Position numbers and translations under genes: made by a program. From an uncultured Caulobacterales bacterium (lineage in GTDB: Bacteria; Pseudomonadota; Alphaproteobacteria; Caulobacterales; Caulobacteraceae), in contig CAIOYC010000039.1 in NCBI GenBank assembly GCA_903862425.1, positions 62,001 to 126,000 on the forward strand: 64,000 nt of DNA, read 5' to 3'. Each line of letters begins with the position of its first letter. Position 1 is the first letter of the stretch. Positions 11,272-12,629 of the stretch are shown here, in pieces. The notes beneath the pieces are model-generated. The model ran no database searches. It was not told the DNA's origin and saw only the letters and a list, made by a program, of their open reading frames with translations.

Positions 11272-11351
11272 CTGCGCCGGGACATACCGGGTCTTCAGTT
11301 CCCAACCTCCGCCATAGGGGTTACAGAGCGTTACATGCTCTGGTCTGCCCT

Positions 11352-12629
11352 ATGAACGAGGATGCGATTCAACAGGCGGCGACGCGTCTGGTGGCGGCCG
11401 GCGCGCTCGGCCGCTCGGTCATGTTGCGCAAGCTGTTCGACTATCTGCTCGAACGGTCGATGGCCGGTTCGCCCCCCAAGGAGACCGAGGTGGCGCTGGC
11501 CGTATTCGGCGATAGTCTGCGCTTCAACACCCCCCAGGACGCCTCGGTCCGCGTCTATGTGCACCGGCTGCGGCTGAAGCTGACCGAATACTATGCCGGT
11601 CCGGGCGCCGACGAGCCGGTGAAACTCGACATCCCCAAGGGCGAATACCGTCTCATCGTCCGGTTGGAGAGCGATGGTCGGGCCGAAGGCCCTGAAGCCG
11701 CCGCGGTGGCCACGCGGCGATGGGCGCCTCGACCGTGGATGTGGCTCGTGGCTCTCCTTGCCGTCTTCGTTCTGAACGTCGGACTGTGGGCCGTGGTCGC
11801 CGGCCATCCCGGCGGTGAACTGGCGCAGGAGCGGCGCGCTGCGCCTTGGGCTTCGCTTCTGAATAACCGCAAGCCCACCACCGTGGTGATAGGCGACTAC
11901 TACATCTTCGGGGACATCGACCGACCGCGGCAGGTGGACCGGTTGCTGCGCGAATACAACATCAATTCGCCTATCGACCTCGACGACTATCGCATGGCGC
12001 ACCCCGACGTGCAGCAGCGTTATGTGGACCTCGACCTCTACTACCTGCCGGTCTCCAGCGCCTTCGCCCTGAAGGATCTGATGCCTATCCTGGCGCCGAC
12101 GGCCAGAGACCGCGACCAGATCCACATCGCCCTGGCCTCGGACGTCTCGCCGGAGATGCTGCGGCGAACCAATATCGTCTATGTGGGCTACCTCTCCGGC
12201 CTCGGCATCCTGCGCGACGCGGTGTTCGCGGGGTCGCGCTTCACCGTGGGCGAGACCTATGACGTGCTGATCGATCAGGCGGCGCAGAAACGCTACGCCA
12301 GCCAGGAGGGCGGCCCCAACCAGGCGGACGAGCAGCAGCGCGACCTCGGCTATTTCGCCAGCTTTCCGGGTCCCAACGGCAACCGCATCGTCATCCTGGC
12401 CGGCACGCGCGACATGGGCGTGACCCAGATGGCGGAGGAGGCGGTGAATCTCGCCGCGCTCTCGGCCATGCACAAGGCCTCGGGAAACGCCGACGCCTTC
12501 GAGGCGCTCTACGAGGTGCAGGGCGTCCGCCGCAGCAATTTCGGCGGCAAGCTCCTCGTCGCCGCCCCGCTCAAGGCTGACCGCATCTGGAGCGAACAAC
12601 GCCCCGTGCTGCAATTCCCGAAGGGGTAA
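11352..12629 (+). CDS. Putative membrane-tethered transcription regulator
   Basis: A 425-aa protein of three parts. Residues 1-105 resemble the N-terminal domain found in many acidobacterial TPR/WD40-like membrane proteins and cyclase-like proteins: MLRKLFDYLLERSMAG, KETEVALAVFG, VRVYVHRLRLKLTEYY and VKLDIPKGEYRL. It is winged-helix-like in character. Residues 127-148 form one membrane helix (MWLVALLAVFVLNVGLWAVV). The remaining ~275 residues would be periplasmic, have no recognised domain, and contain repeated YY/DxY segments (VIGDYYIFGD, YVDLDLYYLPV). The layout resembles CadC-type one-component regulators. No partner gene is adjacent; holA converges 7 bp away. Function is inferred. Confidence 0.6.
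   Translation: MNEDAIQQAATRLVAAGALGRSVMLRKLFDYLLERSMAGSPPKETEVALAVFGDSLRFNTPQDASVRVYVHRLRLKLTEYYAGPGADEPVKLDIPKGEYRLIVRLESDGRAEGPEAAAVATRRWAPRPWMWLVALLAVFVLNVGLWAVVAGHPGGELAQERRAAPWASLLNNRKPTTVVIGDYYIFGDIDRPRQVDRLLREYNINSPIDLDDYRMAHPDVQQRYVDLDLYYLPVSSAFALKDLMPILAPTARDRDQIHIALASDVSPEMLRRTNIVYVGYLSGLGILRDAVFAGSRFTVGETYDVLIDQAAQKRYASQEGGPNQADEQQRDLGYFASFPGPNGNRIVILAGTRDMGVTQMAEEAVNLAALSAMHKASGNADAFEALYEVQGVRRSNFGGKLLVAAPLKADRIWSEQRPVLQFPKG

Follow-up and report, generated by a model that had tools for sequence, protein, structure and literature searches.

Regulators of the ToxR/CadC type are one-component proteins with an OmpR-type winged helix at the N terminus, a single transmembrane (TM) helix, and a C-terminal part outside. 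Proteins of the OmpR family place two winged helices side by side on direct repeats, and direct repeats with a period of 10 to 11 bp suit an OmpR-type winged helix. Membrane-tethered regulators pose a practical difficulty, since it is often unknown what they control. The census of transmembrane transcription regulators (TTRs) of the ToxR/CadC type by Demey et al. (2023, PMC10269533) relied on Pfam DNA-binding models.

Here we describe a protein of this layout encoded in the window, by which we mean the whole 64,000-nt stretch of DNA analyzed. It shares with ToxR/CadC-type TTRs the OmpR-fold winged helix, the single TM helix, and a presumed outer C-terminal part, but its sensor is different and its candidate targets, the genes of a TonB receptor and a CxxCH lipoprotein, are unlinked. 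Since the window protein has no Trans_reg_C hit, a census based on Pfam models, like that of PMC10269533, could miss it. The layout as such is already known from the TTRs (same source); the sensor and the predicted GTTAC regulon are undescribed in the literature that we searched, which consisted mostly of papers outside subscription. Searches of that literature around acidobacterial, CadC-like, ToxR-like, and TonB themes returned no description of this regulator family, and no mention of DUF6152 or DUF6644 was found there. An orphan regulator without a Pfam hit now has a predicted operator, a candidate target at an unlinked locus, and a signal of co-inheritance with it.

The regulator gene and its relatives

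The regulator has the following parts:

11352–12629, + strand: membrane-tethered one-component regulator, 425 amino acids (open reading frame, homologues, fold model, hydropathy, dN/dS)
11352–11666, + strand: predicted OmpR/PhoB-type winged-helix DNA-binding domain, residues 1–105 (AlphaFold2, VIA-align, weak Trans_reg_C matches in relatives)
11733–11801, + strand: single TM helix, residues 128–150 (hydropathy, K/R bias, AlphaFold2 helix)
11817–12626, + strand: presumed periplasmic sensor, alpha/beta, BcsB/GH67-GH115-N-like, residues 156–425 (model, VIA-align, alignment)
Within residues 156–425: sensor motifs GDYYIFG, VYVGYLSGLG, GYFASFPGPNGNRI, and FEALYEV

The open reading frame is intact, begins with ATG, and is single-copy in its own 3.69-Mb genome (3,694,921 bp; G000). 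Homologues were found in 14 of 149 family genomes, its own counted; beyond the window's copy, 14 further copies at 38 to 73% identity are spread across these genomes. The closest is the orthologue in G028, a genome of the same genus (73% identical), which also adjoins a nitroreductase gene resembling the window's. The first-pass annotation had noted that the gene stands alone, and its surroundings agree: a nitroreductase gene (Pfam) lies upstream on the same strand, and a convergent gene, which we take to be holA and for which Pfam gave no family, lies downstream. Gene calls were made by a home-made frame-composition method, by which some genes are missed or miscalled.

Outside the family, a profile of the regulator matched at least 17 of 385 genomes of the class (its own counted), in most cases along just the N-terminal part. 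Few candidates per genome were scored in the class and phylum searches (four and six, respectively), so that counts from both are lower bounds. Homologues over at least 80% of the length occur in seven plasmid records of Novosphingobium, Catenovulum (Gammaproteobacteria), and Persicobacter (Bacteroidota). G028 also carries a distant second copy (L017/L061, G028:C7; 28% identical), which converges on genes for a glycerophosphodiesterase and a TonB receptor.

A modeled OmpR-type fold in the N-terminal domain

Structure prediction of residues 1 to 105 had been proposed in the first-pass annotation as a way to look for a winged helix. AlphaFold2, run on an alignment of 16 sequences (mean pLDDT of 80.6 and pTM of 0.59 for the regulator), models one of the OmpR/PhoB type, with predicted helices at residues 3–15, 23–38, 44–52, and 65–82 and strands at 90–93 and 102–105. 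In VIA-align, residues 3 to 105 share their fold with OmpR/PhoB-type DNA-binding domains such as those of PrrA (1ys6), SaeR (4qwq), and PhoB (1gxp) at Z scores of 6.5 to 8.7, the best match being PrrA (Z of 8.7 over 87 residues, 2.9 Å). A Z score under 8 may reflect merely a common arrangement; here, half of the matches listed (25 of 50) belong to this one family, among them SaeR, ArlR, PhoP, CpxR, and PhoB.

The Pfam model Trans_reg_C (PF00486) was matched by 14 of the 16 alignment members at E ≤ 1 (best, 5.5e-4); the window protein had no match at E ≤ 10 and is absent from the 17 hits in its genome. A PDB sequence search with the N-domain alignment, A1, gave no clear relative (SaeR at E of 0.73). 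Because hhalign of A1 against one response regulator of the same genome gave a probability of merely 3.6%, the link to OmpR rests on the fold and on the Trans_reg_C hits of relatives. The direct-repeat site predicted at the regulator, with a period of 10 to 11, is a further likeness to the OmpR/PhoB family. Unlike OmpR/PhoB response regulators, the window protein has no receiver domain and is tethered to the membrane.

The first-pass annotation linked the N-terminal domain chiefly to large acidobacterial membrane proteins. In the genomes searched here, the domain is widespread in Alphaproteobacteria, one example being the N termini of rhizobial proteins that carry the annotation “adenylate cyclase.” Residues 3 to 131 of the regulator are ~32% identical to one such protein of Agrobacterium, and the match stops at about residue 131, at the beginning of the regulator's membrane helix.

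Membrane topology and selection

The regulator contains one hydrophobic stretch, peaking at residues 132 to 150, and no other 19-residue window exceeds 1.6. The AlphaFold2 model places a helix at residues 128 to 150, and K/R residues number four in the 22 positions before the TM helix and two in the 22 after it. Given a single TM helix, the positive-inside rule suggests that the winged helix is probably cytoplasmic and the C-terminal part periplasmic. The layout first proposed from the sequence, a CadC/ToxR-like one-component regulator with one helix and a new sensor, thus holds on the model and on hydropathy.

When the regulator was compared to its same-genus orthologue, dN was 0.197 and dS was 0.862, with 79 of 101 residues identical in the N domain, 208 of 270 in the C domain, and 17 of 49 in the linker and TM helix. 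Both domains are therefore under purifying selection, but the linker and membrane helix have drifted. Such poor conservation is expected of a mere tether, and it would also suit a regulator whose DNA-binding part is freed by proteolysis instead of acting from the membrane. We consider release by proteolysis very unlikely, since no protease gene was noticed as a common neighbor in the gene clusters examined, although an FtsH-like gene does adjoin the regulator at two loci of family f14.

A predicted operator at the regulator start

Relatives share a direct repeat, GTTACA-N4/5-GTTACA, in the DNA that leads up to the start of the regulator gene. The window holds one such site:

11320–11335, + strand: predicted operator, direct repeat GTTACA-GAGC-GTTACA, period 10 (genome scan, family recurrence, shuffles)

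The predicted operator ends 16 bp ahead of the start codon and is the one exact GTTACA-N4-GTTACA in its genome, where one further site has one mismatch and 14 have two; at the same tolerance, the reversed pattern gave 61 matches compared to these 16. Two of the 16 were examined more closely, a two-mismatch site on contig C29 (described below) and the one-mismatch site, C3:127575. The latter precedes a response-regulator/kinase pair, and its relevance is uncertain. Across the 149 family genomes, 32 exact repeats were counted versus 19 for the reversed control. Nine of the 14 regulator genomes (G000, G147, G092, G073, G006, G135, G117, G030, and G015) carry an exact repeat at the regulator start and five do not; in G028, the repeat at its own regulator has decayed. 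When 22 regulator starts were assessed against dinucleotide shuffles, GTTAC/GTAAC words were seen 26 times compared to 4.5 expected. Ten of these starts have two words in tandem on one strand with a period of 10 or 11, and eight have no word at all.

A second exact repeat in the regulator locus of G030 (G030:C25:6612-6627) lies behind a PepSY-like gene and before no called gene. Exact GTTACAGGCTGTTACA sites recur in five genomes of genus g14 (G118, G113, G136, G014, and G148), in which no regulator homologue was found, and are perhaps the operator of another regulator. Element A (GTWMNWTACGGTTYM), a footprint beside some GTTACA sites, was rejected as a second operator, with 16 matches compared to 26 for its reversed control in the 149 genomes.

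Neighbors of the regulator in relatives

Neighbors were counted at 18 alphaproteobacterial loci, a set that leaves out the window, its orthologue, and L065 (G155), which is cut by a contig end; the queries were taken partly from the very loci counted. A TonB-dependent receptor gene is located within 8 kb of the regulator at 14 of the 18 loci (at one, L050, as a fragment), and at 11 it is divergent and no more than 0.8 kb upstream; the remaining four have no TonB receptor nearby. The window's genome has 34 TonB receptors in 3.69 Mb, so chance alone would place one at about 3 of 18 loci (about one in six), provided that other genomes are similar in this respect.

In G092, G073, and G117, which have the regulators closest to that of the window, the regulator is divergent to a gene for a small lipoprotein with one CxxCH motif. 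The lipoprotein and haem labels were assigned by reading; the protein has no match in Pfam or NCBIfam, and a PDB search gave no clear relative. DUF6152, DUF6644-like, or PepSY genes are found near the regulator in Novosphingobium, in genus g15, and at one g7 locus. Three further winged-helix loci differ from one another: that of G662 shows GTTAC words together with a divergent receptor, that of G745 is followed downstream by a receptor and DUF6152, and that of G786 has neither.

In Catenovulum and Persicobacter, the neighbors are c-type cytochromes, DUF1553/DUF1501 proteins, and glycoside hydrolases or domains of such enzymes, among them GH115, GH2, GH30, and a GH141 insertion domain. None of the neighbor queries matched at these loci (L043 to L046), where the genes running divergently from the regulator homologues are of the c-type cytochrome/DUF1553 or glycoside hydrolase kind; a GH115 gene is nearby twice (L044 and L046), and the sensor fold resembles GH115 N-terminal domains. 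An FtsH-like protease gene adjoins the regulator in L062 and L063 (family f14). At L050 (G117), a short TonB-receptor match (64% identity, E of 2e-8) lies ~800 bp upstream of the regulator, beyond the lipoprotein gene, and is perhaps a receptor remnant.

A candidate target locus on another contig

Within 8 kb of the regulator, the window contains no gene for a TonB receptor, a CxxCH lipoprotein, DUF6152, DUF6644, or PepSY. Orthologues of the receptor (C29:84564-86645, 55% identical) and of the lipoprotein (C29:87030-87608, 47% identical) are divergent to each other on contig C29 of the same genome. The receptor is followed by HlyD and RND-like genes (RND by reading), and the pair is adjoined by DUF6644, DUF6152, and related genes. 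The cluster as a whole (G000:C29:79910-94089, L115) comprises the TonB receptor, HlyD/RND-like genes, the CxxCH lipoprotein, two DUF6644 genes, DUF6152, and an MFS-like transporter (by reading). It resembles a pathway by which some substrate would be taken up and oxidized.

The gap between receptor and lipoprotein contains a variant site at C29:86982-86997 that differs at two of the 12 fixed bases; at 14 two-mismatch sites in 3.69 Mb, ~0.001 would be expected by chance in a gap of that size. The gap, 329 bp long if the receptor start is as assumed, holds four GTTAC/GTAAC words compared to 0.46 expected. In G028, 23 bases at the C29-type site are identical while the flanks have diverged. Two GTAAC words in 93 bp (0.35 expected) are found in the promoter of the DUF6644 pair on C29. 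G117 has two exact repeats in its genome, one at the regulator and the other before a pair homologous to the C29 DUF6644 pair, and in G042 a similar module occurs twice, at the regulator and ahead of an unlinked lipoprotein-receptor-PepSY operon. The first-pass annotation had suggested that the target may be either distant or the regulator's own promoter; candidate sites now lie at both, 11320–11335 and C29, with co-inheritance pointing the same way.

The sole exact repeat of the genome is the regulator's own, and no target gene is adjacent, which would fit a regulator that is now only autoregulated, its old target in this genus having been lost or passed to other control, and that acts on genes unseen here. 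Against this stand the receptor, lipoprotein, and DUF6644/DUF6152 orthologues, which lie together on C29 with related sites, and the 23-bp footprint held in common with G028, where it is the regulator's own repeat that decayed instead. We therefore regard restriction to autoregulation as improbable.

Co-inheritance with the lipoprotein

The lipoprotein is present in all 14 regulator genomes and in 11 of 135 others (Fisher's test, 2.7e-13); within genus g7, the figures are 8 of 8 with the regulator and 4 of 15 without it (P = 0.001). Within the 250 bp that precede the best match to the lipoprotein, the 14 regulator genomes hold 23 GTTAC/GTAAC words compared to 4.4 expected, while the 11 comparison genomes, which have no regulator, hold 1 compared to 1.2 expected. 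A word is present in 12 of 14 regulator genomes versus 1 of 11 others, and a composite repeat in 7 of 14 versus 0 of 11. Where the lipoprotein lies apart from the regulator (10 genomes), the words sum to 14 compared to 3.0 expected; 2 of these 10 are empty. No words were found before the lipoprotein copy tested in G030 and G015. As a control, the 11 comparison genomes are imperfect because the DNA before the lipoprotein is coding in several, and in G020 and G102 a same-strand gene lies 51 and 78 bp upstream. Because the sequences are related, the counts do not come from independent observations, and this relatedness inflates all of the co-inheritance and word figures.

These counts bear on who owns the operator. 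The assignment to the membrane protein is our inference, and exact repeats also occur in the g14 genomes without a homologue found; the GTTAC repeats might thus belong to another factor that controls the regulator together with the receptor and lipoprotein genes, with the membrane protein binding elsewhere. This is unlikely in our view, given that words precede the lipoprotein in nearly all genomes with the regulator and in a single one without it. Moreover, the excess of exact sites over the control is near the nine found at regulators, and direct repeats of period 10 to 11 suit an OmpR-type winged helix.

Proposed mechanism

Overall, the regulator probably binds tandem GTTAC repeats, controls its own gene, and, on a signal from the periplasm, acts as a switch for an unlinked uptake/redox cluster. 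The C-terminal alpha/beta domain would sense a ligand or a partner in the periplasm, and two winged helices would sit side by side on the predicted GTTACA-N4/5-GTTACA site with its period of 10 to 11 bp. The location of one site just ahead of the start codon suggests autoregulation, which may be negative because the repeat is so close to that codon. Other putative sites are the variant in the receptor-lipoprotein gap on C29 and the GTAAC words before two DUF6644 membrane proteins. Many relatives have the candidate target genes beside the regulator; in this genus the genes lie elsewhere, with the predicted sites still in front. The likeliest output of an engaged sensor would be induction of the C29 uptake/redox cluster. 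As to the sign of regulation, activation of the divergent targets is a guess that is about as apt to be wrong as right. Naming the ligand of the sensor would help to explain several gene clusters, among them those with DUF6644/DUF6152 genes.

A sensor domain shared with other proteins

The first-pass annotation recognized no domain in the C-terminal part, and our homology searches likewise gave no known sensor family by sequence for these ~270 amino acids. The window protein has no Pfam match there at E ≤ 10; NCBIfam gave one match, over residues 104 to 167, far below its cutoff; and a PDB sequence search with the sensor alignment, A2, gave no clear relative. By structure, VIA-align matched residues 155 to 411 of the model to BcsB (9fmt_F; Z of 11.9, 163 residues, 2.9 Å, 10% identity). 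The N-terminal domain of GH67 (1mqr) followed with a Z of 9.0 (127 residues, 3.2 Å), and further matches were to the N-terminal domains of GH115 and GH84 enzymes. Foldseek with the regulator model was marginal (best E of 4.4e-3). The sensor as modeled resembles in fold the flavodoxin-like region of BcsB and the GH67/GH115/GH84 N-terminal domains at an identity of just 10 to 13%. On this model, the likeness to BcsB would be one of common fold and not of family membership. The window protein has no Pfam hit for BcsB, and no cellulose synthase gene is among the nine neighboring window genes scanned with Pfam, one of which has no family.

The sensor domain occurs in Alpha- and Gammaproteobacteria and Bacteroidota. 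In G199, a fusion gene (L064:7539-8714) joins the same sensor domain (hhalign probability of 95.7%, E of 9e-9, 180 columns) to a TIR/nucleoside-deoxyribosyltransferase-like N terminus (Pfam PF05014 at E of 0.0072, below the cutoff; PADLOC TIR at E of 5.1e-4). A second fusion was found in G531 (L188), from another class of the phylum, with a TIR/deoxyribosyltransferase-like N terminus by reading; the A2 profile, which includes the G199 row, matches it at E of 5.2e-19. Both proteins have a homologous C-terminal domain, but their N termini are enzyme-like and no winged helix was seen. The joining of the sensor to such N termini indicates that the domain is mobile. The TIR-like fusion, used as a query, had no match in plasmid or phage searches.

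It is possible, if on balance doubtful, that the sensor is an undescribed mobile ligand-binding domain of BcsB/GH67N-like fold, lying outside the membrane on tethered factors that act as switches for genes of TonB receptors or of polysaccharide degradation and inside the cell in the TIR/deoxyribosyltransferase-like fusions. If so, a single sensor module would serve nutrient regulation and possibly signaling or defense. In the phylum search, the domain was found in at least 8 of 398 genomes, one of which (G531) has the enzyme-like N terminus. The G199 fusion is flanked by genes that read as transposase-like.
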